64,000 nt of DNA from Psychromonas sp. B3M02. Its GTDB lineage: Bacteria; Pseudomonadota; Gammaproteobacteria; Enterobacterales; Psychromonadaceae. The notes below the pieces were generated by a model. The model did not search any database and was not told where the DNA came from. It was given only the letters and a program-made list of their open reading frames with translations. The stretch lies in the NCBI RefSeq assembly GCF_003318165.1, contig NZ_QOCB01000115.1:1-64000 (forward strand). The letters run 5' to 3'. Of the stretch, positions 17,188-27,081 are shown piece after piece; the stretch's first letter is position 1; each line of letters begins with the position of its first letter. The translations under genes and the position numbers were made by a program.

Positions 17188-17920
17188 ATATTGTCGTTAA
17201 AGGAGATTTGATATTGACGAATCTTGAGATTATTAATGTGTAGGAAAGTGCTTATTGAGGGTTAAAATTGGGTTTATGTTTAATCAAATCTACCGCAGTA
17301 AATGGGCGGAGGTTAAAAAGGGCACCGCGCTATCAAATGATGCTGATAGTGTGCTTATTTATGATGTTCACGACTGGGCCGTTAGTAAACAGTACCAATC
17401 ATAATAAGATCGCGGTCACCTATTCACTTTCTGTAACCATGTTCAATAAAAAGATAATTAGCATTCGTTGATGGCCTGCATGCGCAGATTCTCTGATTTG
17501 TCTGAAAATGAGCATTATTCTTTATCTTTACACACTAAAAAGTGTATTCGTTAATACTCGCGATGATGTGGGCAATCATATAGGTCTGTTTTATATTTTA
17601 AAAACATTGGCTGTCCTGCATAAGTTGTTTTTGCCTGACTGGTCTGTTGTGCGCAGTTTATATATTAATTATTTCTTAATTTGTCAGTTATCTAAAGATA
17701 GTAAAGGTTATTAAAAAATTAATAACTTACTAGAGCCAGTTTAACTAACATAGAGCGTGTAAAAATTATAATAACTGATGTAAAGCTTACACGTAAACCT
17801 ATTTTAGCAATGAAGCAATGAAGCAATACACAATAATATTGATTTCTAATAATAAGTATTAAATTTTAAGTTGCTGATAATTAATGTTATTTTATTTTTT
17901 GAACGCGCAAAGGTTCATGC
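17188..17920. other. Long noncoding stretch with an ORF fragment
   Basis: No full gene is visible. A 42-codon frame at 17276-17404 (MFNQIYRSKWAEVKKG..., ending SKQYQS) has protein-like composition but no good ribosome site. It ends exactly in a TACCAATCATAATAA sequence resembling the end of the element at 6-167, so it may be the stump of a gene cut by that element. Frames nearer 17508 look random. Confidence 0.35.
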
Positions 17921-17936
17921 TGGCACAGTGATTGCT
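17921..17936 (+). promoter_or_regulatory. Sigma-54 (-24/-12) promoter
   Basis: TGGCAC-AGTGA-TTGCT matches the RpoN consensus TGGCAC-N5-TTGCW at every position, with exactly 10 bases between the invariant GG and GC. Transcription would start near 17947, about 50 bases before the glycine-zipper stress gene. Confidence 0.75.
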
Positions 17937-17995
17937 GATACCACTATAGCTAAGGTAATAAATTAGCTAGTTTTTAACTAACAAGAGGTTTCATT

Positions 17996-18490
17996 ATGAG
18001 CAAAGTAATTACTGGATTATTCGAAAATTCATCAAAAGCAAGTGCTGCAATTCATAGATTAGAAGCAATTGGCGTTAAACAAGATGACATAAGTGTAATA
18101 GCTAATGACTCATATTCTACAGATGACTTTGCTGTAGACGAAGGTACAAAAGCCGCTGAAGGTGGCATTGTAGGTGCCGCATCTACAGGTATATTAGCAG
18201 CAGTTATTGCAGGGTTTACAACTGTTGGTGCCGTTGCAACAGGCGGCACAGGTTTACTCGTTGCAGGTCCATTAGTCGCAGCATTTTCAGCGGGTGGCGC
18301 TGGCGCAGCAGTAGGCGGTAGTTTAGGTGCTGTTATCGGTGCATTTATTCCTGAACACGAAGTTAAATATTACGAAGATGCTATCGAGAAAGGCTCTGTA
18401 CTTATCGGTGTGCAATACAATAGCGATAACAAAGATAAAGTTAAAGATATCCTAGAAGGTATGAATGCTGAAAAAGTAGCTACAGCATAA
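17996..18490 (+). CDS. General-stress (YflT-like) glycine-zipper protein
   Basis: A 164-residue protein. The N terminus (SKVITGLFENSSKASAAIHR, ~1-50) resembles the heat-induced/general-stress 17M (YflT) domain. The centre (~55-120) is very rich in Gly and Ala with a glycine-zipper membrane pattern (GGIVGAAS..., GGAGAAVGGSLGAVIG). The tail is charged. Family members are stress-induced, but their biochemistry is unknown. AGAGG precedes the ATG, and a consensus sigma-54 promoter lies ~60 bases upstream. It opens the stress cluster. Confidence 0.75.
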   Translation: MSKVITGLFENSSKASAAIHRLEAIGVKQDDISVIANDSYSTDDFAVDEGTKAAEGGIVGAASTGILAAVIAGFTTVGAVATGGTGLLVAGPLVAAFSAGGAGAAVGGSLGAVIGAFIPEHEVKYYEDAIEKGSVLIGVQYNSDNKDKVKDILEGMNAEKVATA

Positions 18491-18594
18491 AAGTAGCTAT
18501 AGCGTAATCGGTACCATTAAATGGCAAATGACGTTGTGTAATAGGTAATAAAGATTGAATAACTATTATAGAAACGTTGATTGACATTTAACTT

Positions 18595-18620
18595 AAGGGG
18601 CAAGAATGCTATTGCCCCTT
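18595..18620 (+). terminator. Hairpin after the glycine-zipper gene
   Basis: AAGGGGCAA and TTGCCCCTT form a perfect 9-bp stem about 100 bases downstream of the stop. The T-run is short, so termination is probable rather than certain. Nothing else is visible up to 18892. Confidence 0.5.
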
Positions 18621-18892
18621 TACAAACCCAATTTACCAAAAATAAACCATTCATTTACCTATAATCTCTATACTTATGTCTGTTTTTTGTAAAAGAGTCT
18701 TTCTAAAAAACATCGTAAATAAGGTATTAATTTTTAAGCGATATTCAGCTAATACGTGTTCATTAATGCGTAAAAGGGATGCTTAATGTCAACATCTCTG
18801 ATTGCCAATCTTATTAACTTCTTTACTGTTCTTCTTTAGGCTGTTTTTCTTGTTAATGTAACTTTTATTTATGTTAAATATAAAAGAGTAAA

Positions 18893-19840
18893 ATGATGAC
18901 AAATAAAACGATACTCAAGAAAAAAAACATCACAGATCAACATGATACTTATCATATCGATAAGATTAAAAAACGTATTGGTCAGCACAATATTGAACAA
19001 GGTAAAAGTGAAAGAGGCAAAGAACGAAAAATAGAAGCTGAACACTATAAAGAAGTCATTGTAAAACGCATTGACGGTACCTTCAGGCATGCTGACGATA
19101 TATTACAACTTGCAATACATGAGGGTAAAAGCCAAATAGAGAGGCCTATTTTAGGCTTACTATTATCCTCGGTTGCTGCAGGGATGATCATCGGGTTTAC
19201 AGTATTAGCTGTCGCGGTGATGACAAGTATTGTGGGGAGCACGGAAGGTATTAACCGTGTATTTATGGCGTTAGTTTATCCTCTTGGCTTTGTTTTATGC
19301 ATATTAAGCCGTACGCAGCTCTTTACTGAACACACCGCCACAGCTGTTTATCCTTTACTTGATGGTAGTACTGATATTGCTGGTGCATTAAAACTTTGGG
19401 TCATTGTTATTTTAGGTAATCTGGCCGGTGGTTTTACCATTTCAGTCTTATTGAATGCTGCCGAACCTGTTATTCATGCTAAAGAGGGATATTTATTAGT
19501 TGCTGAGCATGTTTTACAGTATGACTCAATTAGTTTACTTATTAGTGCTGTATTAGCAGGGTGGTTAATGGCCATTGGTGCTTGGACAATTCTTTCTACA
19601 CATTCAACTTCCAGTCAAATTCTTTGTATTTATATTGCTACATTTCTTATCGGTATTGGGGGTCTTCATCATTCTATTGCCGGATCTGTAGAATTATTTA
19701 TTGGTTATCTAATGTCTCCTGAGATTACATTAATGACGATTACACCGGTTATCTTATTAGCTTTATTAGGGAATGCGATTGGCGGCAGCATTTTTGTTGC
19801 CCTATTGAATTATGGGCATATTAGAGGTCTTAATAAATGA
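18893..19840 (+). CDS. Formate/nitrite transporter (FNT) family protein, YfdC-like
   Basis: A 315-residue membrane protein. A charged, Lys-rich cytosolic N terminus (~1-80, longer than in FocA) precedes six FNT-type helices. Family elements include ILSRTQLFTEHTA, ILGNLAGG and the second-half GIGGLHHSIAGS. It resembles YfdC-type FNT proteins of unknown substrate rather than FocA or NirC. A second in-frame ATG lies at 18896. It sits between stress-protein genes, so a role in anion or weak-acid traffic under stress is an inference. Confidence 0.85.
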   Translation: MMTNKTILKKKNITDQHDTYHIDKIKKRIGQHNIEQGKSERGKERKIEAEHYKEVIVKRIDGTFRHADDILQLAIHEGKSQIERPILGLLLSSVAAGMIIGFTVLAVAVMTSIVGSTEGINRVFMALVYPLGFVLCILSRTQLFTEHTATAVYPLLDGSTDIAGALKLWVIVILGNLAGGFTISVLLNAAEPVIHAKEGYLLVAEHVLQYDSISLLISAVLAGWLMAIGAWTILSTHSTSSQILCIYIATFLIGIGGLHHSIAGSVELFIGYLMSPEITLMTITPVILLALLGNAIGGSIFVALLNYGHIRGLNK

Positions 19841-19949
19841 GAAAACGACTGTAAATAATGTCTATATCCCATTCTGTATTTAAAGCATATTATCAATGTA
19901 GCGTAAATCATTGGTTATTTTACAATGTTATCTATTAACTAAAAGTAGC

Positions 19950-19966
19950 GGACACCCATAAACTTT
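19950..19966. repeat. Dispersed repeat GGACACCCATAAACTTT (copy 1)
   Basis: The same 17-base word occurs at 27269 and, with one change, at 28464. Each copy lies just beyond the 3' end of a minus-strand gene. Confidence 0.6.
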
Positions 19967-20032
19967 GACGACTCGTTATTGATCAGTAATACTTTTTTAA
20001 ATATTTATGACTGTCCAGTTTGTTTTCTTTAC

Positions 20033-21763
20033 CTAATTGGAAAAAATGAACACACTGTATTTAGGTATGTTGATAGAGCCATTCTTTACGCTAACCTCTT
20101 CAGTCACTATGCCATCAGACCACGCAAATAAACAGGTGGCCTCTTCATGTAGTTCACTTAATACATACTCCTCTATTTCAACATCAGATAGATTCAGGTA
20201 AACATTAATTTGTTCATCATCAACACCATTTGAACGGCTGAATCCAATAATCTTATGCGCGTCATCTCGGTGAATAATGTGTGTTTGGTCACCTGTTAAC
20301 CCTGCTGAATGACCCTCACTATTTTTACGTAATGCAATTAATTGTTGGAAGGCTGTGTAATATTCATTAAATTGCTCTTTTTTTTGCCAATTAAGGGCTT
20401 CATTGTCATCAAACCAACCACTTTCTTTCATCTCCTGCCCTTGAAACAGCATTGGGATTCCAGCCGTTGTTAACACTAACGTGGCTGCAATAATCCCTTT
20501 TTGACGAGCAAAAAAATCATCGTCAACGTGGCCGGGGGCAATTTCTTCTACTATTCTAGCCTGTCCGTTAGCAACTTCATCATGTGATTCTGTGTATATA
20601 ACCCGTGAATAAATATTACCACTGTAACTATGCAGTAGGGCGCCTACTATTTTATCAAGGTCTATATCTTCAGCGGTTGGTTGAGTTAACGCTGCTCGTA
20701 TTGGGTGTACAAATTCTGCATCCCACTGCGATGTAAAACCACATCCACCTTGTTCTACTGGATCGGTGATGAAATCATGTTTATGTAGATCTTCGGCTAT
20801 ACACACTTTATTAGGAAAGTGTTGTTTGATGGTTGAATTGATATCCTGGATAAGCTCGTAGGCTTCTGGGATATCATCTTGTCCGTTGTCTGCCCCAGAA
20901 ATACAGCGCATAAAGGGCAACATATCTACTCTCAACCCATCGGCTTTAAACTCTCGCAACCACATCAATGCATTGTCTTTAATGTAGTCGCGCACTTCGA
21001 TGCGACCATAGTCAGGTCGGGTCTCGCCCCAGGGGGTTGAGCTTCGTTGGTCATTGTAAAAGTAAATGCCGCCTTTATCGTTTTCGCTCCAACCATCGAA
21101 TTGCCATATGTTCAAATCACTTGGTCCTAAATGATTATAAACAACATCTAAAATGACACCCATGCCTCGCTGATGTGCTGCATCTATAAATTGCTTTAAA
21201 CCATCGGGACCACCATAAGCTTCTTCAATAGCAAAGGGCGCTGCTGGGTTATAACCCCAGCTAATATCTCCGGCGAATTCATTAACTGGCATTATTTCTA
21301 ATACATTTACGCCTAATTCAACTAAATCATCCAGCTTTTCGATTGCAGAGTTAAAGGTGCCACGTTCGCCTGATAGTTGATTAAAGGTGCCGATATGCAT
21401 TTCGTAAATGATTCTTTGATGGACAGGAGGTAATTCAAAATCGTCTATTTTCCAATTAAAATCATCATCGTATATGATTGAATTGCCTACGCTGTTAGTC
21501 ATTTTTCTAGCGCGAGGATCGTTTTTTTTGTTGTTTTTATTATCGGCAGATTCAATACAAAATTTATACTCATCATTATTAGCGGCTGTTGGAATATCGA
21601 CCCACCAAATCCCGTTATCTGCTTGTTGCATTGTATTTTGGTCTTCGTCCCAGTCATTAAAGTCTCCCACTAAAGAAACGGATTTAGCATTGGGTGCCCA
21701 TACTGAAAATTGGTAACCTTTATCAATTTTATTCACACCTAAAACACCTTGATATGTTGACAT
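20033..21763 (-). CDS. GH13 alpha-glucan enzyme, branching-enzyme type
   Basis: A 576-residue protein. An N-terminal CBM48/E-set domain (VSLVGDFNDWDED, ~residues 30-45) precedes a GH13 barrel. Conserved regions are DVVYNHLGPSD (I), GLRVDMLPFM with the Asp nucleophile (II), CIAEDLHK with the acid/base Glu (III) and YTESHDEVANG (IV). Regions III and IV favour 1,4-alpha-glucan branching enzymes, but the protein is shorter than standard GlgB. A TTGGAG ribosome site before the ATG at 21763 fixes the start. No other glg gene is present; its place near katE suggests stress-related glucan or trehalose metabolism. Confidence 0.8.
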   Translation of the reverse strand: MSTYQGVLGVNKIDKGYQFSVWAPNAKSVSLVGDFNDWDEDQNTMQQADNGIWWVDIPTAANNDEYKFCIESADNKNNKKNDPRARKMTNSVGNSIIYDDDFNWKIDDFELPPVHQRIIYEMHIGTFNQLSGERGTFNSAIEKLDDLVELGVNVLEIMPVNEFAGDISWGYNPAAPFAIEEAYGGPDGLKQFIDAAHQRGMGVILDVVYNHLGPSDLNIWQFDGWSENDKGGIYFYNDQRSSTPWGETRPDYGRIEVRDYIKDNALMWLREFKADGLRVDMLPFMRCISGADNGQDDIPEAYELIQDINSTIKQHFPNKVCIAEDLHKHDFITDPVEQGGCGFTSQWDAEFVHPIRAALTQPTAEDIDLDKIVGALLHSYSGNIYSRVIYTESHDEVANGQARIVEEIAPGHVDDDFFARQKGIIAATLVLTTAGIPMLFQGQEMKESGWFDDNEALNWQKKEQFNEYYTAFQQLIALRKNSEGHSAGLTGDQTHIIHRDDAHKIIGFSRSNGVDDEQINVYLNLSDVEIEEYVLSELHEEATCLFAWSDGIVTEEVSVKNGSINIPKYSVFIFSN

Positions 21764-21873
21764 AGTTTTATGCTCCAATGATGTACTCGAAAAGATGAAA
21801 GTAGCGAGTTATCTATTATTTAATTTTTTGAAACTATCATTAATATGCCCTCTGAATTACTTGGGGTGATTAA

Positions 21874-22137
21874 CTAATGGGATCTTAACGCTTCAATTAA
21901 TGCTGCTTTATTCATTTTAGAGCGGCCATTAATGGTTAATGTTTGCGCTCGCTTGTACAATTCTGCTTTAGTCCAGCTTTCATATGGCTGCGCTTTCCCG
22001 CCTTTTTTAGATGGATGCATCTCTGGATTTGCTTGCGCATTGGCAATGCGGGCCGATTTTTCTTTACTGTTTCCTTGGTTAATTAAGGCTTCGTAAACAC
22101 TATCATTTTTAATTTGTTTACCATGTTGATGAGACAT
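21874..22137 (-). CDS. Small Rho_N/SAP-like domain stress protein
   Basis: An 87-residue basic protein. The N-terminal half (DSVYEALINQGNSKEKSARI) is a motif of small stress-linked proteins. The C-terminal ~40 residues (SWTKAELYKRAQTL...SKMNKAALIEALR) match a Rho N-terminal/SAP-like nucleic-acid-binding helix-extended-loop-helix. AGGGGGA stands before the ATG. It lies between katE and the branching enzyme on the same strand, a combination known from stress islands of other Proteobacteria. Its function is unknown. Confidence 0.75.
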   Translation of the reverse strand: MSHQHGKQIKNDSVYEALINQGNSKEKSARIANAQANPEMHPSKKGGKAQPYESWTKAELYKRAQTLTINGRSKMNKAALIEALRSH

Positions 22138-22161
22138 AATTTTCCCCCTTTAGTGGTGAGA

Positions 22162-22185
22162 AAACGACCGAGTTAACGGTCGTTT
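22162..22185 (-). terminator. Hairpin between katE and the Rho_N gene
   Basis: AAACGACCG / CGGTCGTTT form a 9-bp stem around AGTTAA. On the minus strand it is followed by TTTTC, so it may attenuate read-through from katE. Confidence 0.55.
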
Positions 22186-22230
22186 ATTATTCATTCATAG
22201 GTCTTGCTTAGTGATAACTGTCTAATTGAC

Positions 22231-24294
22231 CTAGCGTTGCCAGAAACGCAATGAGCGAAGTGTGTTAATAAATGAATCCGCTTCTTTATCTTCTAGGTTA
22301 ATCATCCCGTTATCTTCTACCTCATCTAACCCTACGGCTTTGAGTAAAGCTTGTGCTTCAGGCGTATAACCAATGAATTTTTTGTGGGCATAAGCATCAC
22401 TAATAAAATCTTTAGCTTCGGGCACTGTTGCAAAATAGTCAGCTCCGTCATTACTCACTAGGACTAATACTGCATCGTATAAGACAGATGGACCACCGGC
22501 AATAGCTTGCTGTGCTTTAACGTGATTACCTTTAGAACAAGCTGCGCCGCCTATGTCTGCTGCAACCACTTCGTATCGAGCACCTTCATCAGCTAATGCA
22601 TCAGTAACTGATTTAAATAATGCACCGTCAAAACCTTCTGATATTAATATACCCAATTTTCTACCTTTGAAAGTATTTTTTGAATTTTTTAATATACTCA
22701 AAGCATCTGATACAGGTAAATCGGTACGTGTTGCTTTTGCTGCTTCAGCGGCTTCTGGCATGGTTTCTAAACCTAAACCTGTAGCGACGTTTTCAGCTAA
22801 CTTTTTATCGATATTGATGAGGTGTGATACTAAACGTTCTCGGATAGCTAATTTTTCGACTTTTGATAATTCAAACACAAGTGCAGATTGAATGTGTTTC
22901 TGCTCTACGCCTGTTTGGCTGAGATAGAACTGGCGAGCTTGGCTATAATGATCTGAAAACGTTTCAGAACGATAGCGTGTTTTATCTCCGGTCATTTGCT
23001 CTGTACTACTTTTAAAACCTTGTTCAGGACAAGCGCGAGGATTATTTTCATCTGCATCCCAAGAGTTAGGTTCATAATTAACACGACCCTTTGGATTTTT
23101 CATTGCCATGTGCCCATCTTGTTGAAAATGATGCATTGGACATTTTGGTGCATTAATCGGAATGTCAGTGAAGTTGGGGCCACCAAGTCGTTTAGTTTGA
23201 GTATCTAAATAAGAGAAATTACGGCCTTGTAATAAAGGATCTGGTGTAAAATCAACACCCGGCACTATGTTTTGGGTACAGAATGCGACTTGTTCAGTTT
23301 CAGCAAAAAAGTTGTCGACTAAGCGATCAAGAACCATACGGCCAACAATTTTAATCGGTACTTGCTCTTCAGGAATTAGCTTAGTGGGGTCAAAAACATC
23401 AAACTCAAAATCGTCAGCAAATTGCTGGTCAAACACTTGCAGGCCTAATTCCCATTCAGGATAATCTCCCGCTAAAATCGACTCCCAAATATCTCTACGA
23501 TGAAAATCAGGATCTGCACCGTTTATTTTGAGTGCTTCATTCCAAACCACTGATTGCATACCGAGTTTAGGTTTCCAATGAAACTTAACAAATTTTTCTT
23601 CACCCTTAGCATTAATCAATTTAAAGGTGTGCACTCCAAAACCTTCCATAAAACGCAATGAACGGGGGATCGCACGGTCGGACATTGTCCACATCACCAT
23701 ATTCATTGCTTCAGGTGTTAGGCTGGCAAAGTCCCAGAAATTATCATGTGCTGTTTGTGCTTGCGGAAAGCCTCTGTCAGGCTCTTCTTTTGCTGCATGT
23801 ATTAAATCAGGAAATTTCATGGCATCTTGAATGAAGAAGACAGGAATATTATTACCTACAAGATCCCAATTGCCTTTTTTAGTGTAAAACTTAACAGCAA
23901 AACCTCGCACATCACGAGCCAAATCGCCTGAGCCTTTGTTACCTGCTACCGTTGAGATTCGTGTAAATAAAGGTGTTTTTTCACCTGCTCGCTGAAAGAT
24001 ATCTGCACAAGTTATATCAGATAATGATTCGTAGGTTTCAAAGTAACCATGCGCACCATATCCTCTAGCATGTACCACTCGCTCTGGAATTCTTTCATGA
24101 TCGAAATGAAACAGTTTTTCCCTTAATACATGATCTTCCATCAAGGTAGGGCCATTTGCTCCGGCTTTTAAAGAGTTTTGATCATCACTGATTGGACAAC
24201 CTTGGCTGGTGGTCATGGTGGGGTAATCATCATTTGATTGGTGAAGTTCTCCGCCTTTGCCTTTACCGCCTGAGTATTTAAATGATTCTGTCAT
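22231..24294 (-). CDS. katE: Large-subunit catalase HPII type
   Basis: A 687-residue clade-2 catalase that disproportionates H2O2. The active-site His lies in [12 protein letters not shown] (~residue 75), the Asn segment is [16 protein letters not shown], and the haem-ligand Tyr is in RNFSYLDTQ (~363). The C-terminal ~150 residues form the DJ-1/PfpI-like flavodoxin domain ([15 protein letters not shown]) specific to large catalases. AAGGATT precedes the ATG. It sits mid-way in a run of minus-strand stress genes and may be read both from its own promoter and from the DJ-1 promoter upstream. Confidence 0.97.
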
Positions 24295-24416
24295 ATCTAA
24301 TCCTTAATCTTTGGGTTAAAAATTAATGTTTAGAGGTTAACAATTGAACACTTACCTCATTGATTAATAGTAATAAAAATGCCAAATACTGATCTTTTTT
24401 TGTCAGTAAGTATTTA

Positions 24417-24875
24417 TTAAATATCATGCATTTCATTGATCTCGATGGAGAGTTGTTTCTTTTTTTGTTCAGTATGTTGATGAAGGTTATCAAATACTTT
24501 TTCTACTTCTTGGGATTCATTTGATTTAGCAATGCCTTGGTAAATATCTGATAAATATTGGTTAAATCGTCCAGCTAATGCTTCAACCTGTTCGCTTGTG
24601 ACTTGTGCGTGGTTAAAATCAGTTGAAAATAAAGAATCAATATTTTGCTCAGGATCAAATTGAATAAATGCTTCTTGAGTTTTATTCGATGCTTTATCAA
24701 GGTAGGCGCTGACAAAATCGAGTAATTCAAGTTCGTGTTTTATCAGAATATCCAATAATAATTTGGTTCGTTGACTTTCAGCTTCCATTGATAATGAACG
24801 ATAAAATTCTGCAATACGTGAGTGCAATTTTTGATTTTGTTTTAAGAAGTCGTGCACGTTATTAAAGTTATTCAT
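24417..24875 (-). CDS. Helical (ferritin-like/hemerythrin-like) hypothetical protein
   Basis: A 152-residue protein predicted to be almost wholly helical. Its spaced acidic and His residues (LKQNQKLHSRIAEFYRSL; ILIKHELELLDFVSAYLDKA) suggest a four-helix bundle, but no metal motif is certain. The C terminus is charged (HQHTEQKKKQL). I do not recognise a named family with confidence; it is reminiscent of small proteins found beside catalase genes. It lies between an SDR gene (111 bases) and katE (122 bases) on the same strand. Confidence 0.65.
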   Translation of the reverse strand: MNNFNNVHDFLKQNQKLHSRIAEFYRSLSMEAESQRTKLLLDILIKHELELLDFVSAYLDKASNKTQEAFIQFDPEQNIDSLFSTDFNHAQVTSEQVEALAGRFNQYLSDIYQGIAKSNESQEVEKVFDNLHQHTEQKKKQLSIEINEMHDI

Positions 24876-24986
24876 TAAGTGGCTTCCTTTAAATTTTTAC
24901 TTACTTTTTAATGTTGATTGATAGGCCTATTGAGAGAGTTAAATAGGTCTAGCTATGCAATAAGTCATATAAATCAGTAATGTAAA

Positions 24987-25667
24987 TTAGTTTGTTGGCA
25001 TGAGTGTTATTTCTCTAACATCACAACGTGGAGTGGCAGAAATGGCATAAACAACTGCTTCTGCAACATCTGTTGGATCTAATTTGTCGGGCTTAGCTTC
25101 ATCAAAGAAAGGGGTGTTGACCATGCCTGGACAGATGGTGGTGCAACGACCTTTCCATTCTGCCATCTCAATAGCTAAGTTTTGCGCAAAACCATAAGCA
25201 AACCATTTTGAAGCACCGTACACTGAACCTTTAAGTGAAATTTTTCCTGCTATGGAGCTAGTGACGATGAAGTGTCCTTGCGTTTTTTTTAGTGCAGGAA
25301 GGCTTGCTTTAGCGGTATACAGTAAAGCGTTTATATTGACATCTAGCATGGTTTTCCATTGATCTGGATCGCCATGTTCAATACCAGGTGTACTGGCACC
25401 CATGCCAGCATTGGCAAATACAACGTCTACTCTGCCAAACTTCTGGTTAGCTTTTTTGATGACGTTACTTATTGCATCCAAGTTTGTGACATCTGCGGTG
25501 ACAGCTAATACTTTATCTTCACCCCAACGTTGTACTATTTTGTTAAGTTTTTCTGTGCTTCTTGCGGTGACTACTGCTTTGTGTCCAGCTTCGAGCACTT
25601 TATCTACCGTCGCTGCGCCTATGCCACTTGAAGCGCCTGTTACGACTATTATTTTTTGATTATTCAT
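24987..25667 (-). CDS. Short-chain dehydrogenase/reductase (classical SDR)
   Basis: A 226-residue Rossmann-fold NAD(P)-dependent oxidoreductase. The cofactor motif TGASSGIGAAT is at residue ~10, NAGMG near residue 87, the catalytic Ser is in IVTSSIAGK and the catalytic YGASK is near 152. The tail PTDVAEAVVYAIS is common in stress-associated SDRs. The substrate is unknown. It begins 34 bases after the DJ-1 gene, so the two are probably co-transcribed. Confidence 0.88.
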   Translation of the reverse strand: MNNQKIIVVTGASSGIGAATVDKVLEAGHKAVVTARSTEKLNKIVQRWGEDKVLAVTADVTNLDAISNVIKKANQKFGRVDVVFANAGMGASTPGIEHGDPDQWKTMLDVNINALLYTAKASLPALKKTQGHFIVTSSIAGKISLKGSVYGASKWFAYGFAQNLAIEMAEWKGRCTTICPGMVNTPFFDEAKPDKLDPTDVAEAVVYAISATPRCDVREITLMPTN

Positions 25668-25701
25668 GTTTGATCCTCTATTTATCTTTCACGTAAGCAA
25701 T

Positions 25702-26256
25702 TTAATGTGTCAATTGGTATGCAATCGCGTCGACAAAAGCAGGAATGTCATCGGGGTTACGGCTAGTGATTAATTTTCCATCTACGACTACTTTTTTATT
25801 TTCCCAGAGTGCCCCCGCATTTTTTAAGTCTGTTCTGATACTTGGAAAAGAGGTGACCTTTCTATTATTTACAATGTCAGCTTCTGCTAATAACCAAGGA
25901 CCATGGCAAATAGCAGCGATAACTTTTATGTTGTCTTCTTTTGTTGCTTTTTGAGTCAACGACACGACCTGTTGATTGGCGCGTAATATGTCTGGATTGA
26001 TTTGACCACCAGGGAAAGTAATACCGTCATAATCTGAAAGGGTTATATCGCCAACTTGTTTATCGACGTTAATTTTATCGCCCCATTTATTGACATCCCA
26101 TCCACAAATTTCTTGATTGTTATCGATTGATACAACATCTACTTCTGCACCCAGTGCCGCTAAACTTTGTTTGGGTTGAAGTAATTCGCTTTGCTCAAAA
26201 CCATCGGTTGCAATCATTGCTATTTTTTTATTTTTAAGTGAATTGTTGTTATTCAT
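25702..26256 (-). CDS. DJ-1/PfpI family protein
   Basis: A ~184-residue protein of the YhbO/PfpI subgroup. The nucleophile-elbow Cys lies in AAICHGPWLLAEA, with a Glu in DGFEQSELLQP and GGQINPDILR nearby. Relatives have been described as deglycases or chaperone-like stress proteins. The start at 26256 is fixed by GGGAGG just upstream; an in-frame ATG at 26268 lies before that ribosome site. It is the first gene of the minus-strand run toward katE, with a sigma-54-like promoter about 107 bases upstream. Confidence 0.88.
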   Translation of the reverse strand: MNNNNSLKNKKIAMIATDGFEQSELLQPKQSLAALGAEVDVVSIDNNQEICGWDVNKWGDKINVDKQVGDITLSDYDGITFPGGQINPDILRANQQVVSLTQKATKEDNIKVIAAICHGPWLLAEADIVNNRKVTSFPSIRTDLKNAGALWENKKVVVDGKLITSRNPDDIPAFVDAIAYQLTH

Positions 26257-26334
26257 TCTGCCTCCCATTCAAAGAGATTAATGAGTAATCGCTAGTGCTT
26301 GATGTGTGTAGCGTCTATTCTGGTTGTTTAGTTA

Positions 26335-26370
26335 CTTTTGACATTGCAATAGCTTTTGACATTGCAATAG
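26335..26370. repeat. Perfect 18-bp tandem duplication
   Basis: CTTTTGACATTGCAATAG occurs twice without a gap. It overlaps the -12 part of the sigma-54-like promoter at 26363-26378 and duplicates its TGCAA element. Confidence 0.85.
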
Positions 26371-26378
26371 CAATACCA
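26363..26378 (-). promoter_or_regulatory. Sigma-54-like promoter for the DJ-1 gene
   Basis: On the minus strand this reads TGGTAT-TGCTA-TTGCA. The spacing of exactly 10 bases between GG and GC and the TTGCA box fit RpoN; the -24 box departs at two pyrimidine positions. It points at the DJ-1–SDR–katE run. Confidence 0.45.
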
Positions 26379-26797
26379 TGTTGTAGAAAAATGGTATATA
26401 TCAATTAAAACAGTTGTTTGGAGTATTTATAGGCGTTGCAGAGTAATGAATACATTGAAATGAATGATGTAATATTTTTATTTATAAATGTAATATTTTC
26501 ATGGTGTGGTTACTTTTACCAATCTTGAAATGTTTGTATTTCAGTAAATAAATACCCTTATTATTTTTTTAAATAGTGCGATAAATACGCATAAGAGTAT
26601 TAATTTTTTAAGGGGGGAATGTTAGCTTTGAATCATATTGATATAGAGTTAAAAGCCTTATAAACACTTGCTCCAGATTCATCTCTATTATAGATGAAAG
26701 TTGTCTGTTTCAATCTGTTAACTCAACCTATTTCCTGATGCAATACTTTGTATCTGCCTCCATAAAAAACACTGCCTATTTTTGAACTGTAAACCCA

Positions 26798-26813
26798 TGG
26801 CATGTTATTTGCT
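26798..26813 (+). promoter_or_regulatory. Sigma-54 promoter for the Pmp3 gene
   Basis: TGGCAT-GTTAT-TTGCT matches the RpoN consensus with one pyrimidine change and exact GG-N10-GC spacing. Transcription would start near 26824, about 100 bases before the Pmp3/YqaE ATG. The rest of the 26257-26922 spacer holds no gene. Confidence 0.6.
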
Positions 26814-26922
26814 CTAATGTTTACTGTTACACGAATATGTTAACCGTGGAAAGTGGGTACTAGGTTGTTGAAATCATCGCTTAGCCCTTTCCAAAGACTC
26901 ATTTACATTTAAGGATTAACCA

Positions 26923-27081
26923 ATGGATATCATTAGAATCATTTTTGCTGTTTTATTGCCACCACTAGGTGTTTTTTTACAAGTCGGATTCTCATGGACA
27001 TTAGTCTTGAATATCATTTTGACGCTTTTCGGTTATATCCCGGGGATTATCCATGCGATTTGGGTTATCGCAAGAAAGTAA
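26923..27081 (+). CDS. Pmp3/YqaE family membrane peptide (52 aa)
   Basis: A 52-residue proteolipid-like peptide (MDIIRIIFAVLLPPLGVFLQ... ending AIWVIARK) with two hydrophobic helices and the family PPLGV motif. Pmp3/YqaE peptides are stress-induced membrane proteins linked to salt and cold tolerance and to membrane-potential control. AAGGA lies 7 bases before the ATG. A sigma-54 promoter is readable upstream, and it flanks the stress cluster. The gene is short but unmistakable. Confidence 0.92.
   Translation: MDIIRIIFAVLLPPLGVFLQVGFSWTLVLNIILTLFGYIPGIIHAIWVIARK

Follow-up and report, generated by a model that had tools for sequence, protein, structure and literature searches.

Introduction

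Stress-protection genes of the kind studied here are usually pictured under the RpoS, SigB or EcfG general stress responses, in each of which a sigma-70-family factor is the switch. Here we analyse an island of such genes (positions 17,921–27,081) in a 64,000-nucleotide stretch of the 3.86 Mb genome (G000) of the cold-loving marine bacterium Psychromonas sp. B3M02, hereafter the window (G000:C56:1–64000; contig NZ_QOCB01000115.1). The gene content discussed below overlaps the cargo of the RpoS, SigB and EcfG responses in OsmY/BON, csbD, YflT-like, DUF1328, catalase and Pmp3 genes, but the promoters found here are of the activator-dependent sigma-54 (RpoN) type. Comparative sequence evidence makes it probable that the island is part of a sigma-54 stress regulon that is dispersed over the genome and served by an orphan activator.

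Our candidate for that activator, an enhancer-binding protein (EBP) encoded on contig C91 of the same genome, resembles FlrA/FleQ and VpsR, which are likewise AAA+ sigma-54 activators with a Fis-type helix–turn–helix (HTH), a GAFTGA motif and a receiver-like N terminus without the phospho-accepting Asp. The FleQ/FlrA and VpsR receivers are degenerate, and FleQ and VpsR bind cyclic di-GMP (c-di-GMP). Sequence matches of the C91 EBP in the PDB include structures of FleQ and VpsR. Its neighbours, however, are stress genes and neither flagellar nor exopolysaccharide genes.

The phage shock response controlled by PspF is a sigma-54-dependent stress response in gammaproteobacteria. The C91 EBP differs from PspF in its putative target genes and scores 277.6 bits against the 443.55-bit cut-off of the PspF model TIGR02974, a cut-off that none of the seven EBPs of the genome reaches; no psp genes were noticed beside it. 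The TyrR box, TGTAAA-N6-TTTACA, has a half-site equal to that of the repeat described below, in which one base separates TGTAAA and TTTACA, and none of the seven EBPs reaches the TyrR model cut-off (243.6 versus 576 bits for L027). In a study of the Desulfovibrio sigma-54 regulome, which also names PspF, the regulon of the EBP DVU3305 is labelled 'General stress response'; DVU3305 is listed there as a two-component response regulator with GAFSGA in place of GAFTGA, and its targets are DVU3302–DVU3298 and DVU3303–DVU3305 (PMC4641369). DVU3305 and the C91 EBP thus share an assignment of a sigma-54 EBP to stress genes, a likeness at the level of the label used in that study. Together with PspF, the DVU3305 regulon shows that sigma-54 control of stress genes as such has precedents.

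Within Psychromonas, the P. ingrahamii genome is reported to contain RpoS and several sigma-54 genes (PMC2405808). The words 'Psychromonas' and 'catalase' are absent from the main text of a comparative sigma-54 study (PMC3162934). We found no title or abstract start describing the regulon, in a literature coverage that is thin for subscription papers and preprints. The individual elements and the kind of system are already known, and what appears to be new is this particular regulon with its activator.

Strict sigma-54 sites in the island

The window was scanned with the sigma-54 consensus TGGCAYN5TTGCW, with the reversed pattern as control. Exact matches precede the YflT gene (TGGCACAGTGATTGCT, 17,921–17,936, plus strand, with 59 bases from the end of the site to the ATG) and the Pmp3 gene (TGGCATGTTATTTGCT, 26,798–26,813, plus strand). 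On the minus strand, a site with one mismatch that keeps both GG and GC precedes the DJ-1 gene (TGGTATTGCTATTGCA, 26,363–26,378), and a weak site identified by scan and alignment, also with one mismatch, precedes the catalase gene (TGGCATTTTTATTACT, 24,369–24,384); the latter has lost the GC at -12 and has probably decayed. A first-pass annotation of this DNA had reported three sites, two strong and one weaker. Here the count rises to four.

Outside open reading frames (ORFs) of at least 100 amino acids (11,465 bases examined), the window contains no further site with at most one mismatch. The 2,199 intergenic bases of the island hold two exact sites and four with at most one mismatch, against means of 0.002 and 0.10 in 500 dinucleotide shuffles, no one of which yielded more than two sites. 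The first-pass annotation, which had proposed RpoN control, held that the proposal would fall if equally good matches were as frequent in random intergenic DNA of this genome; because the island sites far exceed the shuffle means, a similar background frequency is not what we find. Genome-wide, the strict pattern has 22 matches against 4 for its reverse, and a looser pattern (TGGYNYN5TTGCW) gave at least 182 matches over 59 controls. Other strict sites in the genome precede flagellar-type genes (L015–L017), a purine-type cluster (L009–L011) and a PEP-CTERM-like gene (L014), labels that were read from the translations without a family search.

The sites are conserved where the genes are closely related (other genomes are cited by handle; G003 is taken to be Psychromonas arctica). 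The YflT protein of P. arctica DSM 14288 (NZ_KI519480.1) is 91% identical to that of the window. All three YflT copies in the genus, our own included (L035–L037), have the site with zero or one mismatch at -75, -76 or -96 from the start codon; the orthologous sites are in G003 and G023, and G338, from another family, has a perfect site at -63. These counts leave out L074 and nine weak matches (L078–L086, 21–36% identity), one of which, L081, has a one-mismatch site at -213 with TTTC at -12. The YflT relatives L076 and L077 (44–45% identity) have sites with two to three mismatches only. The Pmp3 site is kept in five of the six close copies (our own, that of G021, two in G003 and that of G017), and the sixth, in G023, stands directly behind YflT. 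The DJ-1 site lies at the corresponding place in all three islands, our own included, and reads TGGTATTGGTATTGCA in both G003 and G021.

The catalase site is perfect before both other long catalases (G003 and G021), where the upstream repeat pair described below is also present. In the window promoter (24,295–24,416), AC stands in place of the -12 GC, and the stretch that would carry the upstream repeats is missing, falling in a gap of the alignment with G003 and G021. By this alignment the window promoter has probably decayed, and the catalase gene may therefore depend on read-through from DJ-1.

The scanned paralogues do not carry the sites. No site with at most one mismatch was found before any of 12 distant Pmp3 paralogues (L050, which is partial, was left out; the 12 include L054, which lies close to the end of a contig and could not be placed well) or before any of 13 short catalases (L073 left out).

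Shared repeats upstream of the sites

An inverted repeat, TGTAA-N3-TTACA with zero to two mismatches, lies upstream of the sigma-54 sites, often twice, with the two copies 20–21 bp apart and mostly 65–165 bp upstream. The candidate tandem upstream activating sequence of the YflT promoter (17,758–17,791, plus strand) consists of TGTAAAAATTATA (17,758–17,770) and TGTAAAGCTTACA (17,779–17,791), 21 bp apart, and is also present in P. arctica/G003. A second candidate tandem, likewise from the repeat scan, lies between the divergent DJ-1 and Pmp3 promoters (26,468–26,501), at -123/-102 from the DJ-1 site and -330/-309 from the Pmp3 site. Corresponding pairs stand at -163/-142 for YflT, -165/-144 for acnA and -85/-65 for the G021 catalase, and in G003 at -97/-76 for DUF1328 and -100/-79 for BON.

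We searched 24 genomes of the genus for the 34-base tandem with at most three mismatches, with no sigma-54 condition and with a reversed control. The seven genomes that have either of the two EBP types described below contain 27 places against 6 in the control (one-sided binomial p = 1.6e-4), whereas the other 17 contain 10 against 10 (p = 0.59). All but four of the 27 places were read (G017:C45, G017:C2, G016:C2 and G023:C6 were left unread). Nineteen of these 23 precede BON, DUF1328, csbD, YflT, DJ-1/Pmp3, acnA or aldehyde-dehydrogenase genes; one precedes a gene that reads as NmrA-like and has a one-mismatch site, and three look like chance.

Across the 42 promoters assigned to the regulon, 34 have a repeat with at most one mismatch within 180 bp (shuffle mean 1.18). 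The consensus for IHF is WATCAANNNNTTR; it occurs exactly within 100 bp upstream of 17 of the 42 (shuffle mean 0.85, with a maximum of 5 in 300 rounds) and at none of the 11 other sigma-54 sites of our genome. Among those 11, a repeat of this quality stands only at the aldehyde-dehydrogenase promoter L007, itself possibly a member of the regulon because its G016 counterpart carries the tandem. The RpoN wiring proposed in the first-pass annotation thus draws support from conserved sites, from their absence in the scanned paralogues, from shared upstream repeats and from IHF-like sequences at many related promoters.

Some further promoters bear on the repeat. The acnA promoters of our genome (C84, L106:8811–9280) and of G021 (C42, L166:4502–5230) are YflT-like, with a repeat pair and an identical 16-base -24/-12 element. 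In G021 an apparent FNT-gene tail separates acnA from this promoter, an arrangement that suggests capture of the promoter from a YflT–FNT locus. In L149 (G009:C25), the repeat and promoter of csbD are conserved, but the gene itself is interrupted early by an in-frame stop and seems to be broken. A 16-base site identical to the YflT site precedes an oxygenase-like gene (labelled from its sequence) at G000:C66:30189–30204; the TGTAA-N3-TTACA repeat is absent there, and for that reason the site was set aside as the target of another regulator.

A candidate activator in a second stress island

RpoN (PF04552) is encoded at G000:C65, and the domain is found in all 24 genomes of the genus. Seven proteins of our genome score above 200 bits for Sigma54_activat, none of them on the contig of the window. 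By NCBIfam cut-offs, one of them is NtrC (C70) and another PrsR (C146). A neighbouring pair on C86 probably consists of FlrA and FlrC, which leaves three without a name. The first-pass annotation had predicted a dedicated EBP outside the window, and the genome has a strong candidate for it, with a degenerate receiver. It is encoded at G000:C91:22436–23776, has an AAA+ domain (PF00158) and a C-terminal Fis HTH (PF02954) with no Response_reg hit, and falls below the cut-off of all 25 NCBIfam equivalog models listed.

The gene of the C91 EBP belongs to a second stress island. One of the two flanking operons, which encodes small ElaB/YqjD-like proteins and an AI-2E family permease, is oriented towards it. 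On the opposite side, BON (OsmY-like), DUF1328, hemerythrin and a YegS/phosphatase fusion form a same-strand run that the EBP gene closes. The ElaB/YqjD-like label comes from reading the sequences, which have no Pfam hit. Sigma-54 sites head both flanking operons, TGGCACGACTTTCGCA with repeats at -121/-91 and TGGCACACTATTCGCA with two-mismatch repeats. Three small proteins without Pfam hits (L102:6207–7191), two of them ElaB/YqjD-like by reading, accompany the EBP in several genomes.

Orthologues of the C91 EBP in the genus occur in G009, G016, G021 and G023 at 77–93% identity. G003 and G017 have no orthologue of this type (best match 48%); instead, their equivalent BON/DUF1328 island, which has sigma-54-like sites and repeats, encodes an EBP with a true receiver beside histidine kinases. 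Of 25 C91-type orthologues, 18 have LGISVKTLYNKL as their final, DNA-reading helix, and the other seven differ from it by one or two changes; the corresponding helix of the G003 EBP is LGISTKTLYNRL, and those of PrsR and NtrC are different. All 25 aligned orthologues lack the phospho-accepting Asp (13 have Glu, 6 Gly, 4 Gln and 2 Ala), whereas the G003 EBP has the Asp of a response regulator. GAFTGA is present in 24 of the 25, the remaining one having GSFTGA. In G023, a response-regulator EBP lies 7–9 kb from YflT.

Across the order, 394 genomes were searched for this EBP at E ≤ 1e-100, and 28 have it; these belong to 11 of 115 genera and to seven family codes (f1, f6, f7, f8, f10, f15 and f21). 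We fetched 20 of the 23 EBP loci outside the genus (G037, G240 and G381 were left out). A BON gene lies within the stretch at 17 of the 20; DUF1328 is present at one of the remaining loci and a small lipoprotein at two, such that BON or DUF1328 stands beside the EBP in 18 of 20. A site with at most one mismatch and with GG and GC kept lies within 300 bp upstream of 14 of 28 BON, DUF1328 or ElaB-like genes, the other half having none, compared with 8 of 227 other genes of at least 100 amino acids at the same loci (Fisher 2e-10). The repeat, allowing up to one mismatch, is likewise enriched upstream, at 11 of the 28 versus 13 of the 227 (4e-6).

Proposed mechanism

We propose that a multimer of the C91 EBP binds the TGTAA-N3-TTACA repeats through its conserved LGISVKTLYNKL helix. 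The DNA between the repeats and the promoter would bend, by means of IHF where a site is present, and the EBP would contact RpoN through GAFTGA, with its AAA+ ring remodelling the RpoN holoenzyme waiting at -24/-12 and opening the promoters. As the last gene of the BON–DUF1328–hemerythrin–YegS–EBP run, the EBP could boost its own level. Without the phospho-accepting Asp in its receiver-like domain, it is probably gated by amount, a partner or a ligand, and not by a kinase. In G003 and G017, the response-regulator EBP with its closely similar helix appears to serve the same DNA sites and would be fed by the neighbouring kinases. The output is likely to be protection against oxidative, envelope or osmotic stress.

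The evidence tips slightly towards a wider picture, in which several gammaproteobacterial families have a sigma-54 stress response run in parallel to RpoS by an orphan, phosphorylation-independent EBP, and in which the P. arctica lineage swapped in a kinase-fed regulator while the promoters stayed. If this is true, the stress genes would be strictly activator-gated, a function would follow for the EBP family that 28 of 394 genomes of the order carry, and the lineage would be an instance in nature of one activator replacing another while the DNA sites are kept. The cue read by an EBP without the phospho-accepting Asp would also become testable.

Points against the regulon and alternative explanations

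Several observations weigh against assigning the island to a sigma-54 regulon under the C91 EBP. The link between this EBP and the sites is drawn from co-occurrence and neighbourhood in the sequences, and stays putative to that extent. Eight of the 22 strict matches in the genome lie inside ORFs of at least 150 amino acids and may be chance, and the window shows no excess of sites at up to three mismatches (278 found, 285.8 expected), which places the weight on the strict sites only. The 34 of 42 promoters with a repeat include 11 that were found through the repeat itself, leaving 23 of the other 31; orthologous promoters are moreover not independent, and the repeat motif was read from some of them. 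Within our own genome, an exact IHF site is present at only one of seven regulon promoters, the BON promoter has two-mismatch repeats only, and Pmp3 has no repeat within 260 bp, such that it would depend on the DJ-1 pair some 310–330 bp away. The csbD promoters read TGGCAT-N5-TTG followed by A, T or G, not TTGC.

Distribution is also imperfect. In G020, which is 51% complete, tandems precede csbD and DUF1328 although neither EBP type was found, perhaps because the genome is incomplete. Closer YflT relatives outside the genus (at least 44% identity) occur in four genomes. Of these, G338 contains the EBP, whereas at E ≤ 1e-100 it is missing from G205, G275 and G311; the best sites before YflT in the last two have two to three mismatches. 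Seven Pseudoalteromonas YflT promoters show a weaker site with one or two mismatches (TGG and TTGCT kept, at -56/-57) and no clear repeat.

Mixed control is the alternative that best withstands the evidence, and we give it close to an even chance: sigma-54 would answer one cue, RpoS or sigma-70 would provide basal expression, and the FNT, DUF7218 and glucan enzyme genes would stand outside the sigma-54 regulon. It limits the extent of the regulon and is compatible with it. These three genes have no strict sigma-54 site of their own in the window scan and are tied to sigma-54 only by position and, for the last two, through possible read-through from DJ-1; and the catalase gene is intact behind its decayed promoter, a second point for mixed control. 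On the other side, the analysis found no alternative promoter to be conserved or active. A scan for sigma-70-like sites returned 27, below the 38.6 expected by shuffling, a count that speaks neither for nor against a given promoter.

It is improbable that the sites are real sigma-54 promoters driven by a different EBP, for which the most plausible candidate would be PrsR of the PEP-CTERM/exosortase system (G000:C146). PrsR is clearly encoded (679 bits against a cut-off of 502.6) and is likewise present in each of the five genomes of the genus that have a close Pmp3 copy, and one PEP-CTERM-like gene of our genome, L014, has a sigma-54 site. That promoter, the only PEP-CTERM-like one considered, nevertheless has no repeat at up to two mismatches within 350 bp, and the recognition helix of PrsR differs (LGITRPTLYDLM). 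PrsR also exceeds its cut-off in 16 of the 24 genomes, and nine of these 16 do not belong to the group that shows the tandem excess. The C91 EBP is flanked by operons that have the repeat, or its two-mismatch form, in their promoters.

An ordinary RpoS or sigma-70 stress island in which the -24/-12 matches are chance or relics would accord with the RpoS, SigB or EcfG control of similar gene sets elsewhere, with the RpoS listed for P. ingrahamii and with the decayed catalase site, but is very unlikely in view of the excess and conservation of strict sites, the scanned paralogues without them, the upstream repeats shared with stress genes elsewhere and the stress genes that neighbour the EBP.

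Gene content of the island

The gene families named in the first-pass annotation (catalase, DJ-1, SDR, glucan enzyme, FNT channel, glycine-zipper protein and Pmp3) are borne out by Pfam. On the plus strand, a 164-residue glycine-rich, glycine-zipper-like stress protein with a YflT domain (17,996–18,490, PF11181) is followed by a formate/nitrite transporter (FNT) family protein (18,893–19,840, PF01226), and the Pmp3 family small membrane protein of 52 residues lies at the far end (26,923–27,081, PF01679). The intervening minus-strand run is headed by the DJ-1/PfpI family protein (25,702–26,256), followed by a short-chain dehydrogenase (SDR; 24,987–25,667), a 152-residue protein without a Pfam hit that was absent from the earlier gene list (24,417–24,875), the long-form catalase with its Catalase_C domain (22,231–24,294), a DUF7218 protein (21,874–22,137) and a branching-enzyme-like GH13 alpha-glucan enzyme with CBM48 (20,033–21,763), assigned by Pfam. 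The DUF7218 gene is the one previously described as encoding a Rho_N-type protein: the gene is confirmed, whereas its Rho_N-like tail has no Pfam hit.

Between its FNT and glucan enzyme genes, G003 has a PAS/GAF hybrid kinase, a REC-GGDEF protein and a 72-residue protein (L095:1613–5920), and the window has none of these three genes at that place. The REC-GGDEF gene of G003 stands behind a one-mismatch sigma-54 site with a repeat at -116, which makes c-di-GMP at most a possibility to consider.

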